Shown: one piece after another, positions 19,401 through 44,639 of the stretch
How positions within the stretch are numbered: the stretch's first letter is position 1
How the letters are laid out: each line of letters opens with the position of its first letter
Source of the DNA: a virus
Virus record (IMG/VR): IMGVR_UViG_3300028581_000071
Span: 1 to 47,991 of that record
Length of the DNA stretch: 47,991 nt
Strand: one strand, 5' to 3'
Translations under genes and position numbers: made by a program
The notes under the pieces: generated by a model
What the model was told of the DNA's origin: nothing
Databases searched by the model: none
Seen by the model: the letters and a program-made list of their open reading frames with translations, nothing else

Positions 19401-22400
19401 GTCACAGACACAAACTGCTTACAGCTTTGATCGTGTTGTTCAGGTTCCCGCACAAGTTGCAGTTCAGGTTCTGAGTGCGACTACTGGGTTAGGAACTACC
19501 CTGTCACCTACTGAATATACGGTTGACTGGGTAAACAAGACTATTACTCTCGACAACCCAATTTCATTCACTCCTTCTCTAGAAACATTAAGAATCGATG
19601 TGTATGAAGTAGGTAACGGTGACCAGCTAGTTAAGTCAAGCACTCATAATGATCCGATCAGAACCAACTCCAATACCGGATTCAATGAAATTTACTTGAA
19701 CTGCAACTACAGCGATAGCATATTCAACGGCGGCGGCGTGATTCAACCGGGCTCATTTGATGTCGTGGTGACTGCGGTAGCCACTAGCAGCGTAACAAAT
19801 GAGATTACGTGCGACGACGCATCAAAGTTTTCGATTGGTGAAGCCATAACATTTACCGGTACCTTGTTTGGAAACATTCAGCCTAATACTACATACTACA
19901 TTAAGTCAGTGAGTAATATTACTGAATCAATTACTGTTTCACTATCATATGATCCTATCACTGGCATTGCAGGACCAACTGCACTACTGACAACTGATAC
20001 CGGAACAATGTACATCAACCTAACATATGGTTCTGATGTTCCTTGGACTGCACCTTACGTGATGCATAACGGTACTCTACTAGTAGAGGGGCGGTCAAGT
20101 CAAGTCACCGGTACTTCGGCATCAACAAACGCAATCATTACCAACTCAACTGCTGGTATGACTGTAGGGATGCCGGTAACATTTAGTGACACGATGTTTG
20201 GTAATGTAGTTGAACCGATGACAAGATATTATGTAACATCAATCATTGACAGCACGAACTTCACTATCTCTACTTCACCTAGCGGACCTAACTTGACATT
20301 GACTGATGCGACCGGAGGTGCATATTACATCACCAACGACTTTGCTTTCGGACTACAGCCGAACAATATTCAAGCAACGTTGATTTTTGCAACAGACAGC
20401 TACACTAATGATAATGACTATCTCTGCTATTCTGTGTTTGGTGAAGGCTCACCTATCACATACGGATACACTATCCCGCAAAGACAAGAGTTTGTAGCCA
20501 ACGGAACAGAAGTTTCGTTTGTGTTGTCTAACTTTGTAGGAGAAGACAATCCAATCAACGCGGTTGTAGAAATTGATGGAGTAAGACAGAACTCGTCTGC
20601 ATACAATATTAGCTTTGTAACAAACAGCGTAACGTTCTTTGCGGTCCCGGCAGCAAACTCAATCGTTTCTGTCACTAGCTATAACAAAACGGGACGGCAG
20701 TATTTGAATACTCAGTATGGTATTTCGGGTAACATCGGTAGTGCGTTTGCTACATTCACAGTGGGCACAACGACTAATACAAGCGGGACATGGGACCAAG
20801 ATGATCCTGATGTTCAGTCTTGGGACCAAGACTCTCCTTCGGTAGTGTCGTGGGATGAACAAGAGAGCTGGTTGAGCCTGTCTTCGGGCTCAACCGGGGT
20901 GCTTACGGTCAACGATCCTATCATCTTTGATGCTCCTACTATCGGCGGAATAGTTGCAGGACAAACTTACTATGTGATTGAAATCCTCGATAGTACTGAT
21001 TTCGTAATCTCAACTACACCAGGAGGAACTGCGTTCCAGTTGACCAACGATAGCGGTGCAATGACTGCTAACGCTAACGCATTGATTGTAGCAGAAATTA
21101 CCAATGTCAACAACAATATCACTCCTCCTTTAGCGACTACGCTTGCTACTGCTACAGATGGCGGCACCGATGAAATTACAGTTACAAGCACAGCTGGATT
21201 TATTGCAGGGGCAACTGTAGAATTTAGGGGTACTGCTTTCGGAGGGGTTGCAACTGATGGAACTGTTTATTTTGTAAACTCTGTTGTTGACGGTACTCAC
21301 TTTACGATTGAGGATGCTGACGGAGACATAGTTCCGCTATCTACGGCTACCGGAACCATAGAAGTGACCGTCGGTGGGCAATCTGCGGTACGTGTAACCA
21401 CTGCAATTCAAACAGGATTCACTACTAATACACTTGTAAGAATCGATGGTGTTGAGGGTTCAACTCAATTGAATAACAATACCTACTATGTGCGAGTGAT
21501 CAATAATTACACATTCGACCTATATAATCAGCCTTACACGGCTGATCTAAACGGAGTTAACTATCCGGTAACTACGGTATCCAATTATGTATCCGGTGGC
21601 TTCATCTGGAGACAGGGTTCATTCTATCTTGTTAACACGTATGCTACTGCAACATCGGTTACTGGTCAGATCACGGTAAACTCAACTGCAGGACTAGTCT
21701 ACGGGACACCTGTCTACTTCACACAGTCTGGAAACCAGAACGGCGACAACTTGATGGGCGGCCTCATTCAGGGCACTGAGTATTATGTTCGTGACTTCAT
21801 TGTCGGTGGAGCGATCACGGTTTCATCAACTAGAGGGGGTCCGGCAACCGCCCTGACAAATGACACTGGCTACATCAACGTCACTCAGTGGCAACAGACT
21901 AACGTAGACCGTCTATGGGTAACTATAAACGGCTATAGAGTTCCGTCATCTAAGCTCAAGCTGAATGACGTAAATGAGGTTAGCATCCTGTCTTCAATCA
22001 ATCCAGGGGATATTGTCATCATCACTAGCATGATGCCTTCTGCTACTCCAGATCAACAAGTTTACTTGAATTTAGTAGATTATGCAGGTAATCCAGCAGT
22101 GTATTCTGCAAATGACGAGACTAGAACTTGGTTGACCCGTACGTTAGGTATTCTAGATACTGTAATGTATGTAGGGGATGTTACATCATTGACCCAACAA
22201 GTTGTTCAAAACGTTACTGCACCTATAGCAGTTGCCGGTTACTACAACATTGGTTTAGACTCGGATAAGAGAACATTAACCGGAGTAACGGTTTATAATA
22301 ATACTACTGGTCAAAATATCAGTAACGATTATATAAGCATCATCTTAGTTGACGCTGCGCCGATTTTAAAAATTGCTTCAGGTTCTTGGATCGCTGCAGG

Positions 22401-22698
22401 TAATTCTCTGACAATAACTTCACTTGAAGGTAACACCGTTTATGTCAACGGAGAGCTAATACGATTCAGTAACGTAGACTTCTCGGCTAATACGTTGAGT
22501 GGCCTAGAGCGAGGGGCAGACGGCACCGGAGCACAATTAATAATTCCTGAATATACCGATGTAATAGGACTTTTGGGCATCAATAGAATGAGTGATATTG
22601 ACTATAATTTAGTCTGGAACTCGTATGTTTATAACCCAATAGACGGTGATCCTTTGCAAATCAGCCAAACGGTTCCGGCTGAATTCTTAAATACGTGA
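4426..22698 (+). CDS. Giant virion structural protein / adhesin (6,090 residues), in the gene 7 position
   Basis: One uninterrupted frame of 18.3 kb encodes 6,090 residues. The N-terminus (FLPEVFQTPPNAQFLAATLD near residue 10, then a GVNATDAYVTEPTKTR segment) resembles the start of large structural proteins placed after gp6 in marine T4-like phages; T4 has gene 7, a 1,032-residue wedge protein, here. Residues about 1200-2250 look like a conserved core rich in Trp and Tyr. Residues 2432-3130 hold FG-GAP-like repeats (YGSAVAY, FGSSIAY, FGQSVAT, YGAALDF, each followed by a GAP or GSP-type turn). About 13 beta-rich modules with a YY(V/I) core recur, mostly at residues 4120-5820. A second motif (G..Y.I..LG.T.W) occurs near residues 722 and 2572. 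The C-terminus has a GLERGADGTGA turn. The likely role is a baseplate-anchored fibre or adhesin; the gp7 equivalence is by position only. Confidence 0.85.
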   Translation: MARVRTLNFLPEVFQTPPNAQFLAATLDQLVNPPSVANIQGYVGSTFGTGVNATDAYVTEPTKTRADYQLDPSVVFTKPNESAATDFITYPGIIDALKMEGGITENNDRLFTSQFYSWDSFTNLDALINFNQYYWLPEGPPSVQVAASTVFSREAFVVTDNTNTYSIVREGSTRSNTNPAITLLRGGTYTFEVDQTSPFWIQGAPGVSGNSPTQPNQSVRDVYGVTNNGATSGLVTFEVPQRNAQDEYIFPTTVNTDVISTSSFDDINGQFVNSFEGIDGITSLLGLRVAFYNTPQPIAYISSYFDEVEYDTNAPDLVAPITLTVDSCDPSAFTLASGSTSGLIVGGTLTFTGASFGGINIGQVYFIQSIPNSTSFTISTALNGDPITLTAASGTMTVNVNQGLYEDGFNVNVGNTFFVVTYIGDPNDPIIRLIPDGAIPSDTRILPVYGTEWNNRPFYLNDSNNLELIPYISAPLDVLYYQDGTNPNKVGIIRLIEDNLNNTINVDTQILGRTNYTSPNGVVFTNGLKVSFNGDVIPTSYLTGEYYVQGVGTSIDLVPVETLVVPEDFSEGEYNAWDILDWDIGNWDISLDIPVQADYITIARNSINKNAWARSNRWFHIDVITATATYNDDPTIVTTYANISHKAARPIIEFYPNLKLFNSGAVGKDPVDFIDTTNTDALSTVPGSLAYYPDIEVYSTTNAATVTSVSGSPINDESFVAGRYYEIAVLGTTNWNTVAGTTGVTYAVGNVVLCVSPGTGTGTAYQVSTTVTVPVSSITGTLAQYMFVGDQKNYLPTNSQINSLSSDGTNYTLVVTWPVAIAVTGGTTTLVASDTTVNNYSLFPGARVIFAADNDVNVRNKIYVSNFSVVAPSTQPVITLIVAEDGIVAPDTQTVVTRGFANAGLSYWFDGIDWMQSQQKTQLNQAPEFDILDGNGISFSDPVVYPSTTFTGCKLFNYTLGSGAKDPVLGFPIRYSSVSNLGDVSFDVSLNSDTFSYVYGGNPFNQKVNTGYVYNITSDVSYTRLLGWETAIAPSQQYQIFNFDFSLTAPAYIFKCDIAALPALQPDETGWPRVKVYINNVYQEPSDYSVEIGTNTTTIQLFTQIDENTLVQVLLLSDQVSKVGYYQVPLNLSNNPLNTDITTVNTGDIRTQYQDIFINAPNTTGTIFGSNNFRDCGNLNPYGTKIIQNSASLVLPGTFLRNPQYNLFNALQFNSREYVKYKQLLVDTVQKTPYEQRYTPAEILDEALDQITAAKSEINAFFWSDMLPNKSSYISNSYIFNNDLDRSQYPLSHVYNFETANYNGVLVYISRAVDNIIVEKQLLIGTEYVVSTDSPTLTITIPMQDGDIVTIREYNQTYGSYVPNTPTKLGIYPKYIPQVILDSNYLIPTYFILGHDGSYTKLYGDYIPQADILVDFRDQALLEFEKRVYNNLKLSTETPITRYEVVPGFFRDPTYSWDEFLRIYSTQFLNWIGQNRIDYKTQYFSRVNEFTYNYTNSTSKLDNSPILQGYWRGVYEYYYDTTTPDTTPWEMLGFTIMPTWWTARYGPAPYTSDNGILWDDLEQGLIWNNGAPYINPLVARPGLTTIIPVNSNGDLLSPFKVIVSNYNPSTFNKDWVVGDDGPAELSYRRSSTFPFDLARIFALTRPAEFYNLCVDLDNYKYNAEFNQYLFNDRSHLVPSNIEVYGNGTPKTSYINWIVDYEKQQGIDATTEITTTLDNLDVRLVYRLAGYSDKSMLQFYVEKPTPSSTNASLLIPDESYSILLYDNQPFDRLLFSGVIIQQNQDYWTVYGNSQNIAYFEILDPAFNGNFTTLSLEKQTVQVAVNYTTDISFVPYGTKFYTPQDVAQFLLSYGKYLESKGMMFNDVQNGIPITWTQMVYEFLYWIQTGWSNGSVITLNPAATTLDVNQPSALVQPLTIQQQNFVLNQNLYPIRLNDLCVNRDDTLFHMHTLNSGDTMAYAQFNFSNFEHGIVFDNTTLFNDIIYNLTTGLRQNRIYVRGQKTAEWNGTVNAWGFIVNQSDIQEFNSFIKYTKNEIVRYKNKYWTSLTIIEPSNVFDETKWKRINYSDIQQGMFANPSTRAYESTLYYNAEKANLEKDADLLAFSLIGYRPRDYLALIDLTSTAQVQVYKNLIKNKGTLNALSAFKGANLPQGGIQYDIYENWAIKSGEYGGVLNENFVEFRINQTSMTGDPAIVSLTNGESTEGAMQEIPLSNLFNYGTAISSPNILSTTTPYATQGLYPSAGYVNFNDVKMSTYFYAGLPTATNINGTIIPIQNFYVGEYLWMANFKEKWGVFRWKTIGQVTQVRNNQNQTATVTFSAPHELQRLDPMAIINFAANIDGYYIVTDIVNMNEVIINLSVVGANQSSVQGRGLGFAFESQRVATPSEIEALDLTENEFIKNTVWVDENNDGGWAVYRKSINYQYEAQFQIPQSSTYGSAVAYTDQAGYLIGDAGSNVVYRYSYDPMSNTSQLYQTVTPYSPAVSSGFGSSIAYAQNVYAIAANDPTSGTNKTYVYVINDSIVSKYMLEYQPPISGSVNDIAMSDDANWMYLGIPDSGVVSVYRRDNILINAGYLTVGETYTITTLGDTDWVAAGAIDNKVGISFIASNSGSALLSGGVVFGTATQTTYKLATTIDCTALGLTSASAFGQSVATNYDGSVLTVGAPKVILNSSIDNWGAAYIYQRAEQNFETQSTSILYQPQTFQLAWTPTDTKQVLSSVSVTSNYLTVNSASGLYEGMPVMFTGTGFSTSGISPYITYYIQDIVGSTIALKNSRSTNTPITLTNSTVSCTMYPQDSQLYVSVNGTVVQDDNYAVGENTFYYTGALRVGDIVNVSGNEFFMVQEVNSDYTERSDIYYGTSVETTRYGSDVLVGSPYEIDTEGREGAVYSYINGGAKYGVVIGTSPCNLLGTRTLLINGYAAFLPAGNATTVANAINNSRITNVRAIATADNKIIIQLVDNNLAGVDDKLVLSVFNNSVLNELGIQLYTNTQTIKCPYGFGPTEFGYNVKANHTNSIVVSAPVGTRYTGTFFDFTDDENLNNDTVFDNNATRFVDSYPNAGAVYMFEYLSNNNESVSSPGSWTYAQSVNDINTDYGFNPQYGAALDFNSNAVIVGSPNFQPTTIGGEAIVYFNASGVNDWAVYRQSSAVVDINRIQNTQLFGAITNETLVNLDYIDPLQNKILGAARENLDFVTGVDPATYNVSYNTESGPVWGGAHVGRLWFDTSNVRWVNYHQNDVVYNSSYWGEVFPGSDVAVYSWISSFIPPQNYQGPGVPYDVNQYVVNNVINSSNVVVPIYYFWVRNTNVIFSQTGKTLSDSVVQSYIANPRASGISYMAPLLPNTFGIYNSGAYINADDSVFHVGFSNSQSEDTIHNEYSLIRANFQDDFLPGSPNINATHVEGGIHGDIGQQYIYGAPYSLYAKLLDSLAGCTPSGTVVPDPFLPAAVQSGVLVRPSQSFFYERLEAIKNYLTYANDIIINYPIFELREELSFLFTTGEFYNTPDYWSYVDWWAPGYNSGVKPSVQVSVFAELSTLNVAVGTVARVVQNISGRWEVYIQTTAGVWNRIGLQNGTLQFKNDLWNYAAGMLGWDGNFFDTNSFDLYPSEETRSIIRALNEQIYVSDLLIHRNKSLILLFEYIQAETIESQNYLPWLNKTSLADVSHVIRELLPYEVYKTDDQTFLSGYVNETKPYHVVIKDFLFKYTKTDVFEGDVTDFDVPAAYNSTDQQFISPQLVYTIDTSGIYEYNAQDPIWQTNAYSQWFQNFGLSVTGQPGFPITTLNSFLTRSTRYILVDNAHGFPANGVITIGTEQIGYSYVDRSLNIVGGLARGINQTTPVDHIPGEQIFIDLPAVILLDSGRGYTNPPKVTAVIDTTKYPVPRELAVFEAVLGTDSVVQINVVNPGSGYAVLPTLEIEPALTVYFSNTDINSRFNTINIYAPDLRTGDLVRYRAGIGAGAGRLADGQWYYINVLESTTISVIGLYSTYSNAINDQDRIALFDNGTATGMSLNLGAKASIITSSAPIRENIITLKFDRTTYGSKIVDWQADSFYGAYFAGSYYSVDTTASSSGVSLESTHPDINTLLASADGATFEITDVQNQETLTWSSLVRNVEETINEGSGFPDADRYLIRLVLSDSTEPNASGSTIGFYVGMPIKFTGGLAGTGITSGTTYYVAKIINETDFSIEDANGTVIALNSITIEVPVLCYTGQVVDTAIVSVNYPGILTATATSESNNAITVPLTALGTGGTNGFYPGLTVFFTGTDAQFAAFENKIIANEVYYINTIIDQQTFTISEFKNPTFTNVLQNIADTTLVLPITATVTETIGASDIVVLDSNANFNFNDPVIFNTMVIAGSEVSTFGNIVSGTVYYVSEVVDGSPTQIKISETKSGVNFDLSTVAAATDTSAVATNQSNVIPLADATGELTMNVALPVSPGQVNGQQFKFYQTSGQYTDKSGAISNLIETIVYATIAAPVNKVAVESTTNFYTNLPVQFEVATGNLSTGTTYYVLDYSGKSAGGSTLPNLEVQVQQTLSAGNQLICYTGTDTSDLYLNMPITFSGTGLGGLIISDQYFIKSIVNSTTFTVSELPGGTTTTLSDDAGFMVGTGYPYITVSASPGSSPVSLITSTTASALDQVNLTNPTFDISYILGGYRAIIDNGGSGFAINNVITISGTEVDGLSPKNDIIITVSEIDANGVITRVSPAGQPPNLELSYYLKVISATQFEVYENSLMTIPVSGNTFPYEGLTSTTATAASNDRITVGDSSVFDLNDAVVFSGDIFASEIVLGQTYYIKSLPTSTTVTLSAVPAGTTLNISTDTSGSMTMAKPGSFAYLPQPFFFQPSIIRYNNRLYECLVSNNDPEFIFGKWQLVDPGSRNINAMDRVIGYYQPTANMPGVDLTQLFEGVSYPNPIYYGNAFEPSKQFEVDTNLQDQPFDEVLPSTYTVQGADFPYGYAPEELVAGNVRDSIAITVTTRPGTNWDAAEYANVGYSVVSLEIVPESQTQTAYSFDRVVQVPAQVAVQVLSATTGLGTTLSPTEYTVDWVNKTITLDNPISFTPSLETLRIDVYEVGNGDQLVKSSTHNDPIRTNSNTGFNEIYLNCNYSDSIFNGGGVIQPGSFDVVVTAVATSSVTNEITCDDASKFSIGEAITFTGTLFGNIQPNTTYYIKSVSNITESITVSLSYDPITGIAGPTALLTTDTGTMYINLTYGSDVPWTAPYVMHNGTLLVEGRSSQVTGTSASTNAIITNSTAGMTVGMPVTFSDTMFGNVVEPMTRYYVTSIIDSTNFTISTSPSGPNLTLTDATGGAYYITNDFAFGLQPNNIQATLIFATDSYTNDNDYLCYSVFGEGSPITYGYTIPQRQEFVANGTEVSFVLSNFVGEDNPINAVVEIDGVRQNSSAYNISFVTNSVTFFAVPAANSIVSVTSYNKTGRQYLNTQYGISGNIGSAFATFTVGTTTNTSGTWDQDDPDVQSWDQDSPSVVSWDEQESWLSLSSGSTGVLTVNDPIIFDAPTIGGIVAGQTYYVIEILDSTDFVISTTPGGTAFQLTNDSGAMTANANALIVAEITNVNNNITPPLATTLATATDGGTDEITVTSTAGFIAGATVEFRGTAFGGVATDGTVYFVNSVVDGTHFTIEDADGDIVPLSTATGTIEVTVGGQSAVRVTTAIQTGFTTNTLVRIDGVEGSTQLNNNTYYVRVINNYTFDLYNQPYTADLNGVNYPVTTVSNYVSGGFIWRQGSFYLVNTYATATSVTGQITVNSTAGLVYGTPVYFTQSGNQNGDNLMGGLIQGTEYYVRDFIVGGAITVSSTRGGPATALTNDTGYINVTQWQQTNVDRLWVTINGYRVPSSKLKLNDVNEVSILSSINPGDIVIITSMMPSATPDQQVYLNLVDYAGNPAVYSANDETRTWLTRTLGILDTVMYVGDVTSLTQQVVQNVTAPIAVAGYYNIGLDSDKRTLTGVTVYNNTTGQNISNDYISIILVDAAPILKIASGSWIAAGNSLTITSLEGNTVYVNGELIRFSNVDFSANTLSGLERGADGTGAQLIIPEYTDVIGLLGINRMSDIDYNLVWNSYVYNPIDGDPLQISQTVPAEFLNT
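11719..13830 (+). repeat. FG-GAP / integrin-like propeller repeats inside the giant protein
   Basis: At residues about 2432-3130 of the giant protein, (Y/F)G.(A/S)(V/I)A-type strands recur, each followed by a hydrophobic strand ending in a GAP, GSP or SAP-like turn: VLTVGAP, VLVGSP, VVSAPVG and VIVGSP are visible. Each is followed by a strand such as AAYIYQ, AVYSY, AVYMF or AIVYF. This alternation is typical of seven-bladed FG-GAP beta-propellers. The blades are interrupted by at least one inserted module. The calcium-binding DxDxDG loops of classic integrins are not obvious. Confidence 0.6.
16800..21880 (+). repeat. Array of about 11 divergent beta-rich modules (60-80 residues each)
   Basis: In the C-terminal third of the giant protein a module recurs with this order: an ITV..ST.GF strand, a G.PV.F.GT.FGG turn, a TYY(V/I).SI..ST.FTIS core, and a GG..(L/I)TLT..(T/S)G.M closing strand. 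I count copies starting near bases 16800, 17090, 17360, 17810, 18000, 18640, 19765, 20100, 20870, 21140 and 21640. Two outlying copies lie near 5395 and 12577. The copies are diverged at DNA level, so this is an old protein-level expansion. Confidence 0.75.
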
Positions 22699-32451: not shown

Positions 32452-33891
32452 ATGTCCCTGCTCAACATAAACCATCGTAAAGCAAAAGTGGGAACTTTTG
32501 ACAACTACCAACAACATTTACAGAATACAAAAGCCGAACTAGATGAGGTAAGTTCTAGCTTTTGCGCGGCAAAATGGAAGCAGGTTACCATGCATCTTCA
32601 GAATGGCATGAATCATAGCTGTCACCATCCAAAGACCCACGTAGTACCAGTAGAAGAAATCAAACGAAATCCTACAGCACTTCATAATAGTGAATATAAA
32701 AAGCAACAGAGAAAAATGATGCTTGAAGGAGAGCGACCGGCTGAGTGTGATTATTGTTGGAAAGTAGAAGACGATGGTAATGGTGCATTGAGTGATCGTG
32801 TTTATAAGAGTGCAGATAGCTGGGCAGCTCCACACATCCAAGACATTGCTGCTAAGCCATGGGATGATAACGTTGATCCTAGCTATGTAGAAGTAAGTTT
32901 TAGTAACGTATGTAACTTTAAGTGTAGCTATTGTGCTCCGCACATCAGTAGCAAGTGGATGGAAGAGATTGAAAAATTCGGACCGTATCCCACAAGCACT
33001 CAATTTAATAATTTAGGATGGCTTAAACAAGAAGGCATGATGCCTATTCCGAACCGAGAAGAAAACCCATACGTTGATGCGTTTTGGGAATGGTGGCCAA
33101 GGATGTATGGCAGTTTACAGCATTTCCGTATTACAGGTGGCGAACCGTTACTTAGTAAAGATACCTTTAAGGTATTGGATTACATCATCGATAATCCTAA
33201 TCCCAATCTTGAAGTTAGTATCAATAGTAATATGAATCCACCCGCTGCAATTTTCAATAAATTTTTAGAAAAAGTAAAGATTATCATTGATGAAAAAAAG
33301 GTTAAGAAATTCAAAATGTTTACTAGTGCAGAGGCGCACGGTAAACAGTGTGACTACATAAGATTCGGCATGAACTACGACATGTGGTTGACAAACATTC
33401 GTCGCATGTACAAAGAAATTCCAGAAATAGATTTCACTGTCATGAGTACATATAACATTCTTAGCCTTACTACGTATAATAAATTTTTGGATGACGTTCT
33501 TGAAATCAAACGAGAATTTGGAAGACATGACAGCGAAAGAAACCCTATGTTGTTAGACATTCCTTATTTACGTTATCCAGATCATCAAGCAGTGTTCATG
33601 CTTGAACCGGAAATGTTACACCTGATATACGATCAAGTAACTCACATGTATCGTAACTTAGAGTACAAAGGATGGTATGGCACTGCTAATAGAGGCTTCT
33701 ATGAGCATGAAGCCGATAAGTTAAAGCGTATATATAACATCATGAAAAATAATCAACACAATGAATTCACTAATGTAAACAGAAAGAACTTTGTTGCTTT
33801 TGTTGATGAGCATGATCGTAGGCGCGGAACCAATTTCCTAGAAACATTCCCTGAACTTGAAGATATGTATAATAGATGGAAGAGATTATAA
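32452..33891 (+). CDS. Radical SAM enzyme with N-terminal cysteine region (twitch type)
   Basis: The radical SAM cluster motif C154-x3-C158-x2-C161 lies in VSFSNVCNFKCSYC, followed by the SAM-binding RITGGEPLLS segment. Before it, the N-terminal 110 residues hold four more cysteines: C38, C57 (NHSCHHP), and C99/C102 (ECDYCW). Such an extra cysteine region is known from twitch-type radical SAM proteins of T4-like phages, where it may hold an auxiliary Fe-S cluster. At 479 residues it has the usual length. It follows the glycosyltransferase-like genes by four bases and precedes the ISGE genes, so a role in making or altering a sugar or peptide modification is plausible. The substrate is unknown. 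Confidence 0.88.
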   Translation: MSLLNINHRKAKVGTFDNYQQHLQNTKAELDEVSSSFCAAKWKQVTMHLQNGMNHSCHHPKTHVVPVEEIKRNPTALHNSEYKKQQRKMMLEGERPAECDYCWKVEDDGNGALSDRVYKSADSWAAPHIQDIAAKPWDDNVDPSYVEVSFSNVCNFKCSYCAPHISSKWMEEIEKFGPYPTSTQFNNLGWLKQEGMMPIPNREENPYVDAFWEWWPRMYGSLQHFRITGGEPLLSKDTFKVLDYIIDNPNPNLEVSINSNMNPPAAIFNKFLEKVKIIIDEKKVKKFKMFTSAEAHGKQCDYIRFGMNYDMWLTNIRRMYKEIPEIDFTVMSTYNILSLTTYNKFLDDVLEIKREFGRHDSERNPMLLDIPYLRYPDHQAVFMLEPEMLHLIYDQVTHMYRNLEYKGWYGTANRGFYEHEADKLKRIYNIMKNNQHNEFTNVNRKNFVAFVDEHDRRRGTNFLETFPELEDMYNRWKRL

Positions 33892-34827: not shown

Positions 34828-35502
34828 ATGATTGAAATTTTTTTATCCGGAGAGTTCAGAACCGGAACCAAATGTGCAGAAAATTGGAAAAAAATACCAA
34901 ACGCAAATATAACACTCTGTGTTGATTCAGCGAGCGTTGACATGGCAAGGTCAGCGTACCCAAATGCCAATGTAGTAGGGTTGGATTGGAAGTTTTACCC
35001 TACTAATAATAATACAAACAAAATATATTATCGTTGGCAGTATTATGCTGCAACGATGAGATTTTCAGACGATCAACTAGTGTTAGTATCTCGACCTGAT
35101 TTATATATTACCGACATCAGTCCGCTTATTCAGCAAATACAGCTTAGTGATGATAAAGTAATGATTAACTATGATGATCAAGTACAAAGTGCCAATGACA
35201 TCATGTTTGTTGTACCGTTTGGTATTTTTAAACGAATTGTAAATGAATACAGCGAATTTTCGGACTTCACTTCGGCGTTTAAATCACATGAATACCTGTA
35301 TTATATTGCAAAGAAATTTGATGCCGTTTTAGCTCCTTATCATGGAAGACTTTATAGGCCCAACATTCCGGATAACGTTGAGATTAACATTCAAACTTTG
35401 ATGTACTATGATCATCTTTACGATAGACGCCGGCGCCTGTTGCTTAAATACCACAGTTTACCTAATGCCACTCAGCTTCTGGGAACAGTTTCACCGTTTT
35501 GA
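34828..35502 (+). CDS. ISGE-family glycosyltransferase-like protein B (224 residues)
   Basis: ATG 34828 follows an AGGAAGAGAG site by about seven bases; an in-frame TTG at 34801 is not preferred. The protein begins EIFLSGEFRTGTKCAENWKK and shows LVLVSRPDLYITD at residues 84-96, the same two landmarks as its upstream neighbour (ISGEYRT and IRPDIYF). It is shorter and ends in an Arg-rich helix (YDRRRRLLLKYH). Its last 41 bases overlap the 3' end of the convergent dehydrogenase gene. The pair probably arose by duplication followed by wide divergence. The function is probably sugar transfer, not proven. Confidence 0.6.
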   Translation: MIEIFLSGEFRTGTKCAENWKKIPNANITLCVDSASVDMARSAYPNANVVGLDWKFYPTNNNTNKIYYRWQYYAATMRFSDDQLVLVSRPDLYITDISPLIQQIQLSDDKVMINYDDQVQSANDIMFVVPFGIFKRIVNEYSEFSDFTSAFKSHEYLYYIAKKFDAVLAPYHGRLYRPNIPDNVEINIQTLMYYDHLYDRRRRLLLKYHSLPNATQLLGTVSPF

Positions 35503-36124
35503 ATTCAACATTGCTATTGCTTAGTATAAAAAGAATCAACTCTGAAATCTGGTTTGGATCAATAGCATCTCCAACGTCTCCGATCGGGTAAGGGTTTGAT
35601 TCATTCCACAATGAAGTGTTAATTCCGCCGGGGTGTATGCTTACTACTTTAATTTTACGACTACGCAACTCTTTGCCAAGTACGCCGGCAAATGCAGTTA
35701 ACGCATATTTTGACGCACAATAGACAGATTGATTCTCTAATTCTCCTAACCCAGCAACTGAGTTAATGAAGATTATCTTACTATCAGCATTCATTACCGG
35801 TAAGCATATCTTTGTAACATACATAGTGCCTTTAACATTGGTGTCAATGATTTTGCTTATAGACTCCATTTGAGAATCACCAAACGAACACATTTCAAAT
35901 ACAGCAGCATTGTTTACTAGTAAATCAATTTGACTGACTTGCGATATCATACTAGCAACAGCTTCATGGTCAGTTATGTCACCGCGAAAGTGTTGGTAGT
36001 TAACATGTACGATATTTGAATTACCACGTGCTAGCCCATATACTTGCCAGCCTCTTTCTAGTAGAGTTAATGCAATGTCTTTTCCTAATCCGCGACTAGT
36101 ACCAGTTACTACAGCAGTTTTCAT
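35462..36124 (-). CDS. Short-chain dehydrogenase/reductase (SDR)
   Basis: All classical SDR landmarks are present in 220 residues: the cofactor loop TGTSRGLG at 7-14, NNAA at 71-74, catalytic Ser122 (INSVAG) and the Tyr135-x3-Lys139 pair (YCASK), then HPGGINT after the sixth strand. Arg11 and the absence of an acidic residue after strand two suggest NADPH rather than NADH. It is the last gene of the four-gene minus-strand operon and overlaps the cyclase gene by four bases (ATGA). In a cyclitol pathway it would reduce or oxidise a ring carbonyl; this role is inferred from neighbours. Its 3' end overlaps the opposite-strand gene by 41 bases. Confidence 0.85.
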   Translation of the reverse strand: MKTAVVTGTSRGLGKDIALTLLERGWQVYGLARGNSNIVHVNYQHFRGDITDHEAVASMISQVSQIDLLVNNAAVFEMCSFGDSQMESISKIIDTNVKGTMYVTKICLPVMNADSKIIFINSVAGLGELENQSVYCASKYALTAFAGVLGKELRSRKIKVVSIHPGGINTSLWNESNPYPIGDVGDAIDPNQISELILFILSNSNVEFKTVKLFPEAEWH

Positions 36125-37260
36125 AATGACTTATAAACTTCGATTGCTTTACTAATGTTGTCGGTTGTAACATCATTCAGTATTACATATTTACCAATTC
36201 CGGCTGGCATCGGTAAGTATTGATTTGCATTGCGATGTAACCTAGTGTCACTCAATGCGGCTTCTAATAATGCAGTGTCGGTGAAATCATCGTGATATAC
36301 TTGTAGTTTTAACTTGCGGGCAGCACCGACGATGGTGTTAAGTTGATCTATCGTAATTAACTCTCGCACAAATGCAACACAGGAACTAAAAACACAATCT
36401 AATAATACTGCCTCACCGTGGCTCATGTTTGGTAAGTTCTTCATCTCAATCATTGGACTAAATGAATGACCAAAATCTACGCAACGATCTAATTTTTTTT
36501 CCCATAGATTTGGAGCCAGTTCTTCAATCATTCCGGTAATTGCAAGATTGATTGCACGTACCGGAACAGCACCGAGTTGGAACTTCTCAGTCAATAGCTG
36601 GTCTGCGTTTTGATCAAGAATATCAAATAACTCCTCGCTTTTAATAACCGCGAGCTTAAACATTTCGCATATGCCGTTTTTAATCTCACGCTCTGATTGG
36701 GTACTAATAAACTTTCGATCAATCAATGAAGCAATGGGCGGATAATATGATCCAAGTCTGTTTCTACGTTCAAAGTGGTTAATGCCTACTTTGGCACCAA
36801 CTGAAGCATCAACGATAGCGAGTAACGTAGTAGGTACTTTAATATACTGTATGCCGCGCCGATATAAACTAGCAGCGAACCCAACGATATCTAAGAGTAC
36901 GCCGCCGCCGACACCAATGACAGTTTCTCGTCTAAGTAACTTGTTATCTTCAAAAAACTTCAGTATTTCCTGAGCGGTGTTCCAATTTTTATTAGATTCA
37001 GTTGCATCGATTACAAGTAGACATAATTCTATAGAATGATGGTTGAAGTATTCATTCATTGAATCTTTGTATAACTCGTATACAGTTTGGTCAATGATTA
37101 CTAATCGCCTAGTACTCGTGGAGTATGATAACAAATCTTCATTACTTACATTAAACACATCGTTAGAGTAAACAATACGGAATGAAGTGGGTAAGTCAGT
37201 GTTAACTTCCCAGTTTCTTTTAAAGTTTACAAACTCTGGCAACATCTTAGTTTGATTCAT
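36121..37260 (-). CDS. Sugar phosphate cyclase, 2-epi-5-epi-valiolone synthase (EEVS) type
   Basis: The 379-residue protein has the dehydroquinate synthase fold: GVGGGVLLD at 116-124 binds NAD, and Glu199, His265 and His281 match the zinc ligands. The subtype motifs are not those of AroB. YIKVPTTLLAIVDASVGAK at 139-157, ICEMFKLAVIKSEELF at 197-212, EELAPNLWE at 246-254 and VDFGHSFSPMIEM at 261-273 follow the EEVS pattern, whereas AroB has AEVIKYG and NLGHTFGHA. EEVS enzymes turn sedoheptulose 7-phosphate into the C7 cyclitol 2-epi-5-epi-valiolone. The N-terminal 30 residues are extra. The gene overlaps both neighbours. A related cyclase type (for example desmethyl-4-deoxygadusol synthase) is possible but less likely from these motifs. 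Confidence 0.85.
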   Translation of the reverse strand: MNQTKMLPEFVNFKRNWEVNTDLPTSFRIVYSNDVFNVSNEDLLSYSTSTRRLVIIDQTVYELYKDSMNEYFNHHSIELCLLVIDATESNKNWNTAQEILKFFEDNKLLRRETVIGVGGGVLLDIVGFAASLYRRGIQYIKVPTTLLAIVDASVGAKVGINHFERRNRLGSYYPPIASLIDRKFISTQSEREIKNGICEMFKLAVIKSEELFDILDQNADQLLTEKFQLGAVPVRAINLAITGMIEELAPNLWEKKLDRCVDFGHSFSPMIEMKNLPNMSHGEAVLLDCVFSSCVAFVRELITIDQLNTIVGAARKLKLQVYHDDFTDTALLEAALSDTRLHRNANQYLPMPAGIGKYVILNDVTTDNISKAIEVYKSL

Positions 37261-38218
37261 TGAAACATCTTCCTAGTAGGTAGCAAGCATGAGTATAAAA
37301 ATACTTTGCTTTGGTGATGTCCCCTGCAGCACATTTAAATGGAAGCATTCTAATAAATTGTGTTGCCTCAAATATTCGTAATATACGCATATCAAAATTT
37401 GATAGCTTGCTCTCAAATACTTTATTAAAGTCCTGCAATGCTTGCGGGACACTTAAATCATGAGATACTATATTGTTATTCACGACTACAGAGTTATCAT
37501 TAATGAAACCGTAGTAGCTGTGTGAGCATTGTAATATCTGTGAGAAGTCAAGTTCCGGACAGTCAATGATTCCCTCTTCGTATAGATCAATGAACTTAAC
37601 AATATCGTTTGACGGGGAGTACATTATATTTTCTAGTGTTGGGTTACCATGAACATAGCATTCAGTAGTCACATTAAAAGTAGCAAAGAATTGTTCAAGT
37701 GCCGGCAAGTATTGCTGTATTGCGTTTACTTCTTCGCCGTGAAATTGGTAGTTGCCGATCTCATAAAATTCAGCAAAGTCTGTGCTAGATGCAACAGCGT
37801 CTGCTATTTTTTGTATTACTTCTTCGTAATAGTATAGTTTTGCCGCATCGGGACTGGCACGGTAAGTTTTAGCATGTAAGATAGATAGACTATCAAACAC
37901 TTGAGTTACGATTTTTTCCAAGGTGTCCGACGATATCTCAGCACTACATAAAAAGGTTTTTAAATCAACAAAGTCATGAAAATATTCAATATCAAAGTAC
38001 GCGGTGTTTCGCTCTATTGATACGGAAAGTACTCGCGGAAACAGATCCGGAAATTCTTGACCCATACGCTGTAATTTTTTTAGCTGTGAGTACCACCTTA
38101 CAAACCCGTATTCACGATTATCAGTGGTGCTAACTTCCTTGCGTACAAATTTGTTGCCGGCACGGTCGCACAAGTATGTAGCACTTAACGACCCTCCCTT
38201 TAACTTCGTTTTGATCAT
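37247..38218 (-). CDS. APH-fold phosphotransferase-like protein with HGN in place of HGD
   Basis: The C-terminal lobe has the aminoglycoside/choline kinase plan: CYVHGNPTLENIMY at 187-200 (catalytic loop, Asn197 for metal) and FIDLYEEG at 209-216 (Asp211 for metal). VRKEV near residue 27 may hold the ATP lysine. The catalytic base Asp is replaced by Asn192 (codon AAC at 37645-37643), so activity may be lost, altered, or supported by another residue. It sits between the nucleotidyltransferase (four-base overlap) and the cyclase (14-base overlap). In known C7-cyclitol pathways a kinase makes the cyclitol phosphate that is then activated by a nucleotidyltransferase, so context suggests a cyclitol or sugar kinase. 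Confidence 0.72.
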   Translation of the reverse strand: MIKTKLKGGSLSATYLCDRAGNKFVRKEVSTTDNREYGFVRWYSQLKKLQRMGQEFPDLFPRVLSVSIERNTAYFDIEYFHDFVDLKTFLCSAEISSDTLEKIVTQVFDSLSILHAKTYRASPDAAKLYYYEEVIQKIADAVASSTDFAEFYEIGNYQFHGEEVNAIQQYLPALEQFFATFNVTTECYVHGNPTLENIMYSPSNDIVKFIDLYEEGIIDCPELDFSQILQCSHSYYGFINDNSVVVNNNIVSHDLSVPQALQDFNKVFESKLSNFDMRILRIFEATQFIRMLPFKCAAGDITKAKYFYTHACYLLGRCFNESN

Positions 38219-38940
38219 TGTTTGCTAAACTGCAATCGGGTTAGTTCTAACCCGTACTCTTGTGGTGTTCCAAGCACGGTAGTCGAATGACTGCTATCAA
38301 TTTCGTTTGTTGTAATAGTTGATCCAGTGGATAGCATATGACTGAGTAAGTTTGATATATACATTTCTGAACCAATGAAATTCGCTGAGAGTTCGTTGAA
38401 CTTTTCAAGGTAAACATGAGCGTTTTTGAATGCGTATAGACCAGAGCTAGCGAACGGGGATATTGCCCTTTTCTCTACTATAGCAGACACTTTTCTGTTA
38501 TTTATATGAACATAACAGTATGCAGGAGAGTTGGCAATAAAGGTATCAATGTATGCATCACAGTGTGTTAATGCAACATGGATATTAGACAAACTTCGGT
38601 TATAAACTACCGTGTCCGCATTATGAATCAAAAATGGTGCTGATTTATCTTTGACAAGTTCAGCCGCAATCGCCGCAGTATGTGCTTGCCCTGAGGTATC
38701 ATTTATGTAATGCACGTTATTTTCAGTGATACCCAAAGACTCGATTGATGATAATAATTTTGGTTTGAAGTAAAGGTCGCGCTTATTAGCCAGTAGGATA
38801 ACTTCTTCGGTCGGGTTAAGTTCAGCTAAAATTGAGTAAATTATAGTATTATCAGCCCACGGTAACAGATATTTTGGAACATCAAACCCCACGTTGTGAA
38901 ATCGTGTATTATTTCCTGACATGCATATAACTAAACTCAT
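38215..38940 (-). CDS. Sugar nucleotidyltransferase
   Basis: The 241-residue protein shows the nucleotidyltransferase signature at its N-terminus: MSGNNTRFHNVGFDVPKYLL, with the Gly/Arg loop at 9-13 and Pro22-Lys23. HNADTVV at 107-113 contributes the metal-binding Asp109. SGLYAFKN fits the sugar-binding strand of the RfbA/RmlA-type fold. It lacks the C-terminal left-handed helix of larger enzymes. It is the first gene of the minus-strand operon and has a late-promoter box seven bases upstream of its start. It would couple a sugar or cyclitol phosphate to a nucleotide; which nucleotide cannot be told from the sequence. Confidence 0.82.
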   Translation of the reverse strand: MSLVICMSGNNTRFHNVGFDVPKYLLPWADNTIIYSILAELNPTEEVILLANKRDLYFKPKLLSSIESLGITENNVHYINDTSGQAHTAAIAAELVKDKSAPFLIHNADTVVYNRSLSNIHVALTHCDAYIDTFIANSPAYCYVHINNRKVSAIVEKRAISPFASSGLYAFKNAHVYLEKFNELSANFIGSEMYISNLLSHMLSTGSTITTNEIDSSHSTTVLGTPQEYGLELTRLQFSKQ

Positions 38941-38947
38941 AGTCTAG

Positions 38948-38955
38948 TATTTATT
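38948..38955 (-). promoter_or_regulatory. T4-type late promoter box (AATAAATA) for the cyclitol-type operon
   Basis: Read on the minus strand, AATAAATA lies seven bases upstream of the nucleotidyltransferase ATG. A plus-strand box is 17 bases away (38973-38980), making a compact divergent promoter pair. It puts the metabolic operon under the same late control as the virion genes. Confidence 0.55.
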
Positions 38956-39795: not shown

Positions 39796-42700
39796 ATGTT
39801 AAGGGACGTATTTTATTTTAATCAGAAACCCAATACACACCCTCGCGAAAAATTCGCAGAATCATTAGAAGATGCTAGGCAACAGTGTACGACTGACAGC
39901 TTTTGGATCATCAATGAATTCTGCGACTATCGAGGGTTTGATTGGGACTTTGATTTCGAATTCTTACCCGACGAAGATGTATGGGCAGAAGAACACAACA
40001 ACGTCTGGCCTAGTCAACATCAGAAAGATAGCGGGACATGGTTGTGCCCTAAAGAACACAGTGATATAATCATCTATCGCGGTGATGTCAATCCTGTCAT
40101 ACGCAGAAATATCAATGACGATGACTGGGTTGAACTTGACCTGATCGATCACTCCAAGTTCGATTTCTCATGGCATCCCGACCCTACTGACCCGCCCTAC
40201 ATATACAAGTGGGGGTGTAAGTACTTTCCTGCACAGCTTAAGCACGTACTAGAGTATAGAGTGCCCGGTGCAACTACTGAGAAGTACATGTCTTCTATAG
40301 TTGAGTTGTTGCCTGCTGTTGGCTGGACAGAACATCAAGAAGTTGATAAGAACAAGTTTGACATGTCATGGCGTCCTGACCCAAGAGAACCTCCCTTCAT
40401 CTATGTTTGGGGGAACAAGTGGATTGATGCTACAGTTAAACCAACACTTTCTTACCACGCACCCGGGGCTACTGATAAAAAGTTCATGTCAGAGTTACTT
40501 CCTGTTCTTCCTGAATGGGATAGGTGGGTAGAAGTACAAAACGTAGATAAGAACAATTTTGACTTCTCTTGGAGACCTGACCCAAGAGAACCGGCATACA
40601 TTTATACATGGGGCAACAAATGGGTTGACGCAGCAGTTTTCCCTACCCTAGAATATCATTGCGATGACGCAACGGACAGAAAGTACATGGGCAACGATGT
40701 TCCTGTCCTTCCCGAAAAAGATAGGTGGGTAGAACATCAAGAAGTTGATAAAAACAACTTTGATTTCTCTTGGCGACCTGCTCCAAATGAACCGGCTTAC
40801 ATTTATATATGGGGCAACAAATGGGTTGATGCTAGACTTAAACCAACGCTTGTATACCAAACTCCCGGGGCCACTGATAAAAAGTATATGAGCGACGACG
40901 TTCCTGTTCTTCCTGAATGGGATAGGTGGGTAGAACATCAAGAAGTTGATAAGACCAAGTTTGATATGTCATGGCGTCCTGACCCAAGAGAACCGGCATA
41001 TATATACACCTGGGGCAACAAGTGGGTTGATGCGGAGACCCGTCCTACCCTAGAATATCATTGCGATGGCGCGACAGATAGAAAGTACATGGGCAATGAC
41101 GCTCCTGTTCTTCCTGAATGGGATAGGTGGGTAGAACATCAAGAAGTTGATAAGACCAAGTTTGATATGTCATGGCGTCCTGACCCAAGAGAACCAGCAT
41201 ATGTATATACATGGGGGAACAAATGGGTTGATGCGGCGAGCCGCCCTACTTTGGAATATCATTGCGATGACGCGACAGATAGAAAGTACATGGGCAATGA
41301 CGCTCCTGTTCTTCCTGAATGGGATAGGTGGGAGGTTCACCAGCCAATCGATCAATCAAGCTTCGACTTCACTTGGAGACCTGACCCCAAAGAACCTCCC
41401 TTCACTTACGTATTCGGTAACGAGTTGTACGATGCAGTCAAGATGCCTACTGTTATGTACAACATGCCGGAAGGCTCGGTGATTAAGTATGTAGACTTCC
41501 AGAAGGCAAAGTTAGTTAGTGATGCTAGCAGTTATGAATACCTAGAAGATTCATACTTAGCTGACCTCTCGTGGGTACCTGATCCGGATGCTCCTCCGTA
41601 TATCTATGCGTGGGGGAACCAATGGAACAAGCCGGAGGATAAGATTTCAATACAATATGTTGTCCCGGGCGCTACTGAATACGTATACATGGAAGAACGA
41701 GCAGTCCGTAAACCGTGCATGGATAACTGGTATCTTCCTGAAAACGTAGATACCTCTGGGTTCGACTTTTCATGGGAACCGCATCCCAAATCTCCTCCGT
41801 ATATCTATCAGTTTGCAACTCGATTAGATGACATCTGGGTTGATGATGGTCCTAAATACGTCACGCCGGGCAACGATGGATTTGTAGTTAGAATGGAAAA
41901 CTCAATTCTATCTACAGGTAAAATTGAATATCCTAGATATACGATAGAAACTACGCTAGACGAGTTAGTCAAGAAACATCCTACCGAACAGTTTTGGGCG
42001 CTTAATAAGAACATCAACTACGATGACTTTGATTTTAGTTGGAGACCCGATAAGGATAGCCTGTTCAACGTGACAGTATTTGGTTCTCCTGAAAGCGAAC
42101 GTACACATACTTACTTTGTCAATGCTAAGTTCTATTTGCAAGGATACACTGACTTAGACTTCATTCAATCCGGGGTAGAATTGGATGACAAGTATCTAGC
42201 TAAAATCTTTGTCAAGCCAGACCTCTTCTTTGTTGACAGGGGCAATACTGAATCTGCTACTAGATTTGAAACACTGAAAACGAAGTTTGGCATGAGGATT
42301 CAAAAGACTCGCTATCTTAATTCATGGGTAGATACTATCAATCGTTGCACCAATCGTGCAACTACTGAAATGATTTGGATTCTCAACAGTGAACTAGACT
42401 ATGATGACTTTGACTTCGAATATTACCCTAACCCTTGGCAAATGAAAATGGTGCAGGTGTTCGGGACTCAGTGGTCTCACTGGGGAACTACCTTCATGGT
42501 TAACTGTGAGACATTCAAAGAAGATACGAAATACATCAACATCATCGAGCATCTTTCTAATCTGAACTTTGTCAAGACTACCAAAGCAAAAGCCACTGCC
42601 TGCGTTCATGATGTTGTTATGGTTGATCACGGAAACAGTGAACTGCGACAGGTTAGTGTTCAAGTGGAACGGCAAACTGCAAGAAAGTTATTAGCTACGA

Positions 42701-43956
42701 TACCATATGATGAAAGCTACTTGAACACACTCAAGAACTTTATCAAGCAGTTGCCGGCAAAGAAAGAACACTATCTTTGGATTTGCTCAAGTATTTGTAA
42801 CTACTCGCAGTTTGACTTCACGTATGTCTGCGATCCGTTCTCTAGGAATAATCTCCATGTGTTCCCGAGCGACACCCAGAAGTTTGGAGATACTTTCTTC
42901 ATTGATGTGAACAAGACGAAAGAAATTATTGATGAACTAGAGAAGCTGGAAGAATACCACAAGATCAACTTCAATGGTGCAACACGGTCCTCTCGTTTAC
43001 CGGCTCCTCTTATTTTTTCTAGTGATGACATGCATATGAATTCTCTAGATAAAATAACAGGGTTCCCGTATGCTACGATCATTGCAGATGACAATATGTT
43101 TATGGACGCTCCGCCTGACGAACCTATGAATCTATGGTCCCCTGAGACGAAGAACATTATCATAACAAGCACTGGTGCAACACGAATCATCGTGCCAGCA
43201 GAAGCCAAAGATATTGTTAAGAAAGAACTATATGATTATCCGTACGTCAAGAGAATGTCCAAACTTACAAAAAGCGAACCGCTTGACATAGTGTTTGTTA
43301 GCAACGGAGAAACTGTAGCTGAGCAAAACTATGAACACTTGTTGAAATTTACTGACGGACTGCGTAATAAGATACACCGAGTTGACGGTATCAACGGCAG
43401 AACAGAAGCACTACACGCTGCTGCTGAAAGCAGTAAGACACCTTGGTTCTTTTGCATCCCTGCAAAGTTATTTGTCAATAAGAAGTTTGATTGGAGTTAT
43501 CAAGCAGACAGAATGCAGCAGCCCAAACACTATATCTTCAATGCATTGAACCCTGTCAATGACTTGTGTTACGGACACCAATCAATGGTGCTTTACAACA
43601 AGAATCTGGTCCTTGGAAACGAGGGAGTTGGCTTAGACTTCACACTAGACAGCCTGCATATGTCTGTTGACCTTATTTCGGGTACGGTGTTGGGTGACAC
43701 AGACGAATATAGCACATGGAGAACTGCCTTCAGAGAAGCAGTGAAACTAAAATGCTATTCAGAGACAGGCGATGCGGCAGCCATCACACGGCTTGACGTA
43801 TGGACTAGTGTCGGCAAAGGTAGCTACGGCGAGTGGTCTATCAAGGGAGCATTAGACGGAATTGAATTCTATGACGAAGCCGGCGGTGAACTAGCTGTAT
43901 TACGACAGAGCTATTATTGGGATTGGTTAAAAGCTAGATACGAAAGTAAGTATTAA
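39796..43956 (+). CDS. 1,386-residue tandem-repeat protein with glycosyltransferase-like C-terminus
   Basis: The N-terminus (PREKFAESLEDARQQ, then FWIINEFCDYRGFDWDFDFE) already has the repeat's FW..N...DY..FDF theme. Residues 111-640 hold about nine units of the type FDFSWRPDP.EP.YIY.WGNKWVDA..PTLEYH..GATD+KYM; five of them are exactly 67 residues long. Residues about 710-1050 hold three divergent units (DYDDFDFEYYPNPW, NYSQFDFTYVCDP, with VFG.....G.TFF). From residue about 1165 the C-terminus aligns with the 315-residue protein at 31500 (DGINGRTEALHAAAES, then WRTAFREAVK and WTSVGKGSYGEWSIKGA), but the DGDN site is replaced by a Pro-Ala-Lys segment (FFCIPAKLFVN). It may be a modular carbohydrate-related or virion protein; function unproven. 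Confidence 0.8.
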   Translation: MLRDVFYFNQKPNTHPREKFAESLEDARQQCTTDSFWIINEFCDYRGFDWDFDFEFLPDEDVWAEEHNNVWPSQHQKDSGTWLCPKEHSDIIIYRGDVNPVIRRNINDDDWVELDLIDHSKFDFSWHPDPTDPPYIYKWGCKYFPAQLKHVLEYRVPGATTEKYMSSIVELLPAVGWTEHQEVDKNKFDMSWRPDPREPPFIYVWGNKWIDATVKPTLSYHAPGATDKKFMSELLPVLPEWDRWVEVQNVDKNNFDFSWRPDPREPAYIYTWGNKWVDAAVFPTLEYHCDDATDRKYMGNDVPVLPEKDRWVEHQEVDKNNFDFSWRPAPNEPAYIYIWGNKWVDARLKPTLVYQTPGATDKKYMSDDVPVLPEWDRWVEHQEVDKTKFDMSWRPDPREPAYIYTWGNKWVDAETRPTLEYHCDGATDRKYMGNDAPVLPEWDRWVEHQEVDKTKFDMSWRPDPREPAYVYTWGNKWVDAASRPTLEYHCDDATDRKYMGNDAPVLPEWDRWEVHQPIDQSSFDFTWRPDPKEPPFTYVFGNELYDAVKMPTVMYNMPEGSVIKYVDFQKAKLVSDASSYEYLEDSYLADLSWVPDPDAPPYIYAWGNQWNKPEDKISIQYVVPGATEYVYMEERAVRKPCMDNWYLPENVDTSGFDFSWEPHPKSPPYIYQFATRLDDIWVDDGPKYVTPGNDGFVVRMENSILSTGKIEYPRYTIETTLDELVKKHPTEQFWALNKNINYDDFDFSWRPDKDSLFNVTVFGSPESERTHTYFVNAKFYLQGYTDLDFIQSGVELDDKYLAKIFVKPDLFFVDRGNTESATRFETLKTKFGMRIQKTRYLNSWVDTINRCTNRATTEMIWILNSELDYDDFDFEYYPNPWQMKMVQVFGTQWSHWGTTFMVNCETFKEDTKYINIIEHLSNLNFVKTTKAKATACVHDVVMVDHGNSELRQVSVQVERQTARKLLATIPYDESYLNTLKNFIKQLPAKKEHYLWICSSICNYSQFDFTYVCDPFSRNNLHVFPSDTQKFGDTFFIDVNKTKEIIDELEKLEEYHKINFNGATRSSRLPAPLIFSSDDMHMNSLDKITGFPYATIIADDNMFMDAPPDEPMNLWSPETKNIIITSTGATRIIVPAEAKDIVKKELYDYPYVKRMSKLTKSEPLDIVFVSNGETVAEQNYEHLLKFTDGLRNKIHRVDGINGRTEALHAAAESSKTPWFFCIPAKLFVNKKFDWSYQADRMQQPKHYIFNALNPVNDLCYGHQSMVLYNKNLVLGNEGVGLDFTLDSLHMSVDLISGTVLGDTDEYSTWRTAFREAVKLKCYSETGDAAAITRLDVWTSVGKGSYGEWSIKGALDGIEFYDEAGGELAVLRQSYYWDWLKARYESKY
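40324..41328 (+). repeat. Five exact 201-bp tandem units (67 residues each)
   Basis: Units start at 40324, 40525, 40726, 40927 and 41128 and begin with the TGG codon of W(V/T)E(H/V)Q. The spacing is exactly 201 bases each time. The last two units are nearly identical at DNA level, with the first 60-plus bases the same, which points to recent duplication or gene conversion. A diverged 66-residue unit precedes the array at 40126 and further diverged units follow from 41329. Confidence 0.92.
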
Positions 43957-44582
43957 GACTTGCGGAATACGCACATGAATCTATTATACATAGTAGTCTC
44001 CAGTTGACCTGCAAAGATAGGATCAGTAACCCGATTCATCTTTATGAAGTCATCTAGATTGATGCTACATCTTACATGCTCGTCGCAAGAGAAAAAATCA
44101 TTACCCTGAACTACTACCAATGAACCATGAGGTATGTTATCATACCATTGATCATATGTTTCTTGTGTCACATGTTCGGTGCTTGTGTTTATAACGATGT
44201 CCGCAGTATCCGCGTACTGATATTCTTTCATATCGGCAGTGTCTGCATAGTATCGTTGCATGTTGACATAAGTTTGATTTAGCTTTTCGCTGTTTGGCTT
44301 GCACCACGGATCAAGGTCAATGTTGTAAATCGTATCAACATAGAACTTGCTATTCTGAAATAGAATATTAGCCAACACACCTAACCATCCACCAAAGATA
44401 TAGATGTTGCTAGGAATCCTTTTATCATAATGTTTGTTGAGTATCTCAGACAGCCATATCTTACTATGCACTTGGCCATCCCAGAACGCATCTAGCCCTC
44501 TTGAACGTTCAGACTCGGGTAAGTCTCTGATCATGTTGAACCATAGTATGATATGGTCGCTGGATAGCTTGATATTAGTCAT
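43953..44582 (-). CDS. Class I SAM-dependent methyltransferase-like protein
   Basis: The chosen start ATG 44582 directly follows a minus-strand late box; a longer frame starting at 44639 would run through that box. The 209-residue protein has IYIFGGWLGVLANIL at about 61-75, a glycine-rich first motif, then YNIDLDPWC with the acidic residue at the end of strand two. ADIVINTSTEHV and GSLVVVQGNDF fit motifs four and five. Similar small methyltransferases are common in T4-like phages of marine bacteria. Its 3' end overlaps the large repeat gene by four bases on the opposite strand. The target is unknown. Confidence 0.68.
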   Translation of the reverse strand: MTNIKLSSDHIILWFNMIRDLPESERSRGLDAFWDGQVHSKIWLSEILNKHYDKRIPSNIYIFGGWLGVLANILFQNSKFYVDTIYNIDLDPWCKPNSEKLNQTYVNMQRYYADTADMKEYQYADTADIVINTSTEHVTQETYDQWYDNIPHGSLVVVQGNDFFSCDEHVRCSINLDDFIKMNRVTDPIFAGQLETTMYNRFMCVFRKS

Positions 44583-44586
44583 CACA

Positions 44587-44594
44587 ATATTTAT
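44587..44594 (-). promoter_or_regulatory. T4-type late promoter box (ATAAATAT) on minus strand, start-proximal
   Basis: On the minus strand the sequence reads ACATAAATATTGTGATG: the box ends four bases before ATG 44582 with no ribosome site between. It decides the start of the methyltransferase-like gene. Confidence 0.55.
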
Positions 44595-44639
44595 GTGGAA
44601 ATGCGGTTCAGAAAAGTTAGTTTTGGGTGCATAAAACAC

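Follow-up and report, generated by a model that had tools for sequence, protein, structure and literature searches.

A recurrent phage operon with an EEVS-type cyclase: a candidate pathway to a nucleotide-activated C7 cyclitol

C7 cyclitols are known from bacterial antibiotics, glycosidase inhibitors, and fish sunscreens, and the locus described here raises the question of whether phages make them as well. The window, the whole stretch of DNA that was analyzed, is an IMG/VR virus record of 47,991 bases, and the original prediction placed a four-gene operon for a phage-made cyclitol at positions 35462–38940. All four reading frames were found there on the minus strand, each overlapping its neighbor, with overlaps in gene order of 4, 14, and 4 bases. 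The families named for the operon are supported by Pfam for the short-chain dehydrogenase/reductase (SDR), the cyclase, and the nucleotidyltransferase, and by the fold and the weak matches of homologues for the kinase. A conserved viral operon of this kind would extend the C7 cyclitols to phages and would provide a compact four-enzyme source of an NDP-cyclitol. The gene set is small, so direct expression and assay are feasible. The features of the window are collected in Table 1.

Table 1. Features of the window that bear on the operon and its phage
Feature	Coordinates	Strand	Remarks
gp25-like wedge	466–969	+	
Wedge subunit	1025–4411	+	phrog_10646, 5e-254
6090-aa protein, single reading frame	4426–22698	+	flanked by baseplate and tail genes
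Candidate GT-A glycosyltransferase, 285 aa	33943–34800	+	converging on operon; hhalign prob 93.5%, E 2e-7
Possible second transferase ('LSGxxR' family), 233 aa	34801–35502	+	overlaps end of SDR gene
SDR, 220 aa	35462–36124	−	last operon gene
EEVS-type sedoheptulose 7-phosphate cyclase, 379 aa	36121–37260	−	
Protein-kinase-like/APH-like small-molecule kinase, 323 aa	37247–38218	−	
Sugar-1-phosphate nucleotidyltransferase, 241 aa	38215–38940	−	operon gene 1
ATAAATA, T4-late-promoter-like	38948–38954	−	7 bases before first ATG of operon

The plus strand of the window carries fiber-like proteins together with the baseplate and tail genes. The wedge subunit is 31–34% identical, over 92–99% of its length, to its counterparts in jumbo phages of the CBB, SNUABM, and Atu_ph07 types, whose genomes are 355–490 kb. 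Judged by this resemblance, the window probably represents part of a jumbo myovirus genome.

The cyclase contains all three of the motifs that had been listed for it (EELAPNLWE, VDFGHSFSP, and ICEMFKLAVIKS) and matches the N- and C-terminal DHQ_synthase domains of Pfam at 7e-37 and 2e-16, respectively. Its relatives of solved structure are, best first, ValA (4p53, E 8e-86), the DDGS Ava_3858 (2e-64), and 3-dehydroquinate synthase (DHQS, 2e-39). With ValA it shares 44% identity, the zinc ligands (Glu199, His265, and His281, kept in every viral copy with letters there), and the EEVS-type Asp/His pair. This pair, which we take to be ValA Asp281 and His360 and to separate EEVS from DDGS and DHQS, was placed by alignment to ValA, and membership in the EEVS class was judged on it. 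Asp262 is conserved as Asp in 109 of the 109 viral homologues with letters at the site and His342 as His in 108 of 108, while the same sites hold Ala and Thr in both DDGS and Asn or a gap in nearly all DHQS.

With an alignment of the window protein and ValA as the query, 63 viral homologues were collected, and to these were added 70 cellular homologues and the DHQS and DDGS paralogues encoded in the same bacterial genomes. A careful maximum-likelihood tree unites the viral cyclases in a single clade (100/99) inside the EEVS group. This clade is distinct from the actinobacterial EEVS, and its sister is a set of EEVS-like proteins of Paracidovorax (99/96); the DHQS form one outside group (98/90), and the DDGS likewise fall outside the EEVS group. 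Placement in such a tree had been proposed as a check, and it returned no grouping with DHQS in a tree that was built without a labeled aminoDHQS reference. Assignment as a DDGS was rejected on the missing Ala/Thr fingerprint pair and on the AU test, in which a grouping of the viral proteins with DDGS gave p 0.016. Homologues of the cyclase on plasmids are annotated as sedoheptulose 7-phosphate cyclases. By its sequence, the viral enzyme is accordingly classed with the EEVS-type cyclases rather than with AroB, as was predicted, in a class that here spans EVS and EEVS, which these data do not tell apart.

Two scans combined located the cassette on roughly 105 different IMG/VR contigs that were fetched, and its carriers include T4-type (gp23) phages and the jumbo-phage lineage containing the window. 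The first viral scan, like the scan of genomes, used EEVS-type peptide patterns, by which other viral cyclases and cellular neighbors may be missed. The second used an alignment of kinases, was independent of the cyclase patterns, and found a cyclase every time. It returned 118 loci, 80 of which were kept and 78 examined. The cyclase follows the kinase directly in all 73 loci with room downstream, an SDR is present in 68 of the 68 with room, and the nucleotidyltransferase lies directly upstream of the kinase in 67 of 78, the two genes overlapping by 4–29 bases in most loci. The order nucleotidyltransferase–kinase–cyclase–SDR is nearly constant in the viral loci, with overlaps of a few bases. 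A chance arrangement is excluded because the same gene order recurs across dozens of viral contigs.

The cassette records are truly viral. The gp23 capsid gene was found on 7 of the 15 cassette contigs tested, and the one gp23 that was searched is 62–70% identical to those of T4-type marine cyanophages; a jumbo-type baseplate wedge is present on two cassette contigs besides the window. Transaldolase, a possible phage source of sedoheptulose 7-phosphate, was absent from 15 cassette records. A single-protein query against IMG/VR gave no cyclase match, and the phages of INPHARED yielded distant DHQS-like proteins only and no viral EEVS. The original prediction knew of no phage system of this kind, and none was met in INPHARED or in the searchable literature, where no viral EEVS is described; coverage is incomplete, so this is absence of evidence only. 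The enzyme class is known, and the viral carrier and the partner set are new.

The nucleotidyltransferase matches NTP_transferase of Pfam (2.3e-9) and phrog_3980 (2e-35). A profile of 16 viral copies matched the NDP-sugar pyrophosphorylase 4evw best in the PDB (2e-33), followed by RmlA/GlmU, and the lysine of PKYLLP and the aspartate of NADT are invariant. The SDR (adh_short, 9e-40) has the features of a classical member, namely the TGxxxGxG motif and the full Asn-Ser-Tyr-Lys tetrad, with Asn96, Ser122, Tyr135, and Lys139 kept in a 19-member viral alignment.

The window copy of the kinase has no match in Pfam, and several of its viral homologues match the APH/fructosamine-kinase families weakly (APH in 6 of 23). 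The AlphaFold model (pLDDT 93.5) was matched to kinase folds by Foldseek, and APH(2'')-Ia gave one of the better superpositions (TM 0.51/0.55). The fold is that of the APH-like kinases, but the catalytic Asp of the HxD motif is absent: Asn192 stands in its expected place in the Brenner motif HGNPTLEN, and HGN replaces HGD in 132 of 132 viral copies. Lys27, Asn197, and Asp211 are invariant in the viral alignment and by their positions would be the ATP/Mg residues. A profile search of the PDB gave weak kinase matches only; one of these is the pseudokinase domain of JAK2, where HGN also occurs. At the cellular EEVS loci examined, no homologue of the viral kinase was found. The nearest cellular cyclase (46% identity), from Paracidovorax anthurii (locus L065), adjoins an SDR and has ROK and PfkB sugar kinases nearby.

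A distant homologue of the kinase (22%) is found in Bacillus phage G (gp311–gp309, locus L268) with a HAD phosphatase and a nucleotidyltransferase beside it. This sugar-activation set of a jumbo phage, as yet unexplained, has no cyclase, and a gene named alpha glucosyl transferase lies on either side of it. Its kinase keeps the catalytic Asp (HGD). Because this residue is Asn throughout the cassettes, while the phage G homologue retains Asp, the cassette kinase may have weak or altered activity, or may be a pseudokinase.

A gene encoding a protein of ~235 aa shares 13 bases with the start of the nucleotidyltransferase gene in 27 T4-like loci. The model of this protein (pLDDT 82.5) matches glycogenin and the GT6 transferases of the blood-group type (Foldseek E 2e-6, TM about 0.5), and by this computed fold it is a predicted GT-A (GT6/GT8-like) glycosyltransferase. 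The overlap of the two genes points to an NDP-cyclitol as its donor. Remote similarity would place the GT-A candidate of the window, which is encoded on the strand opposite to the operon, in the same family. The protein encoded directly after that candidate is matched at an N-terminal motif only (prob 64% over 23 columns). Genes for a DegT aminotransferase, an NDP-sugar dehydratase-like protein, and a methyltransferase flank the cassette in T4-like loci (L002–L030 and similar), which suggests further sugar building.

The sequence ATAAATA precedes gene starts by 4–24 nt in 6 of its 11 copies in the window (at 994, 4414, 27024, 33931, and 46735 on the plus strand and at 38954 on the minus strand). 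Random placement gave a mean of 0.13 and reached 6 in 0 of 5000 cases, and AT-rich gene starts may contribute to the difference. The genes behind these copies are mostly virion genes (baseplate and tail), but the GT-A candidate and the operon's leading gene are also among them. The motif being common to the operon and the virion genes, late expression of the operon alongside the latter is suggested. Another copy, at 44594 on the minus strand, falls within the ORF at 43953–44639, very close to its 5' end and ahead of an internal start.

We consider it likely, though well short of certain, that a late-expressed phage operon makes a nucleotide-activated C7 cyclitol (a carbasugar) and feeds it to a phage glycosyltransferase. 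The computations establish the enzyme families, the EEVS type of the active site, the conserved linkage and order of the genes, and the fold of the transferase, whereas the substrate, the order of the steps, the nucleotide base, and the acceptor are those that we infer for such a pathway. The cyclase would convert sedoheptulose 7-phosphate from the host to 2-epi-5-epi-valiolone or a close epimer, the ring ketone of which would be reduced to a cyclitol by the SDR. The kinase would then phosphorylate the C1 hydroxyl, and the nucleotidyltransferase would convert the cyclitol 1-phosphate to the NDP-cyclitol. Attachment would be catalyzed by the GT-A transferase (the convergent gene in the window and the nucleotidyltransferase-overlapping gene in the T4-like phages), most likely to a glycan of the virion or of the host surface. 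The unbroken linkage of kinase and cyclase (73/73) and the GT-A overlap in 27 loci argue for activation of the cyclitol with a nucleotide and for its use by a transferase encoded nearby, as the prediction had supposed.

The four genes had also been described as the core of the validamycin and acarbose pathways. What stands of this description is the shared logic of cyclase, reductase, kinase, and nucleotidyltransferase ending in an NDP-cyclitol (AcbC-M-O-L-N-U-J-R; ValA/ValC/ValB). The acarbose route leads to GDP-valienol via two kinases, an epimerase, a dehydration, a reductase, and a phosphatase (PMC9200736), whereas the viral route is shorter, with four genes only. Neither the viral kinase, which is protein-kinase-like and of another family (with Asn for Asp), nor the short RmlA/GlmU-type nucleotidyltransferase is closely related to the acarbose and validamycin enzymes, and therefore the cassette works like those pathways without being a copy or a member of them. 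Among the annotated neighbors of the cassette, no AcbM/ValC (ROK-type) kinase, AcbO-type 2-epimerase, or pseudoglycosyltransferase was recognized, nor was any acarbose-type dehydratase or phosphatase recognized in the cassette. With no epimerase, dehydratase, or phosphatase of that pathway recognized, the viral product would differ.

In one branch of the jumbo phages (loci L036–L054, L232, L244, L245, L249, and L254–L262), the kinase and cyclase are directly preceded by a RuBisCO-like protein of 372–412 aa and a ~113-aa protein (phrog_24762). The former matches PF00016 at 2e-43, with type III RuBisCO as the best assignment, under the cut-off (for example, L054:2122–3360), and might act in the cyclitol route as an enzyme of the enolase/epimerase type. 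The broader proposal is more tentative, with the odds slightly against it as a whole: that at least two phage lineages carry a late carbasugar-nucleotide pathway that puts a pseudosugar on particles or the host surface, joined by the RuBisCO-like enzyme in one jumbo branch. If this is true, the linkage of the pseudosugar would not be a true glycoside and would therefore resist glycosidases, giving a glycan that ordinary glycosidases could not cut, with a bearing on adsorption, superinfection, and defense.

The strongest alternative, which we nevertheless consider unlikely, is that the cassette makes a free cyclitol, such as a molecule resembling the glycosidase inhibitors, that acts in the host, with the nucleotidyltransferase serving another sugar. 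The products of bacterial EEVS are mostly secreted small molecules, as would be expected from this alternative. Acarbose is an instance (PMC9200736). In the jumbo subgroup with the RuBisCO-like protein, moreover, the nucleotidyltransferase is 1.4–2.1 kb away and divergent. Against a free product, the nucleotidyltransferase and kinase genes overlap in most loci, a glycosyltransferase gene overlaps in turn, and no pseudoglycosyltransferase was recognized nearby.

It is a good deal less probable that the activated cyclitol is put on the bases of the phage DNA instead of a surface glycan. T4-like phages do glycosylate their own DNA, and the kinase–nucleotidyltransferase pair of phage G adjoins the alpha glucosyl transferase genes, but the linked transferase of the cassettes resembles glycan transferases of GT6/GT8 and the operon of the window has baseplate, tail, and putative glycan genes around it.

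That the cyclase is a 3-dehydroquinate synthase, an auxiliary shikimate gene with unrelated sugar genes around it, is scarcely credible. NCBIfam aroB does match the protein at 1e-62, yet with 212 of 305 bits it falls far under the curated cut-off; the Lys, Asn, and His of DHQS are replaced by Met244, Asp262, and Pro269, and a grouping of the viral proteins with DHQS was rejected by the AU test (p 9e-9). An equally remote reading is a UV-sunscreen route of the gadusol or mycosporine type from EEVS or DDGS, for which gadusol in fish shares the substrate and the cyclase superfamily (PMC4426668) and some loci have a methyltransferase-like gene nearby, but the viral cyclases have the residues of EEVS and not DDGS, neither an MT-Ox nor an ATP-grasp gene was recognized in the cassette, and a kinase or nucleotidyltransferase would have no role there.

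Two further genes of the window have relatives near the cassette elsewhere. A radical SAM protein (32452–33891, Pfam 4e-7) adjoins the putative transferases, and homologues with 62–72% identity are found near the cassette in loci L036 and L038. The reading frame at 39796–43956 encodes a protein of 1386 aa with several imperfect repeats of the WRPDPREPAYIYTWGNKW type, relatives of which are located near the cassette in further jumbo-phage contigs.
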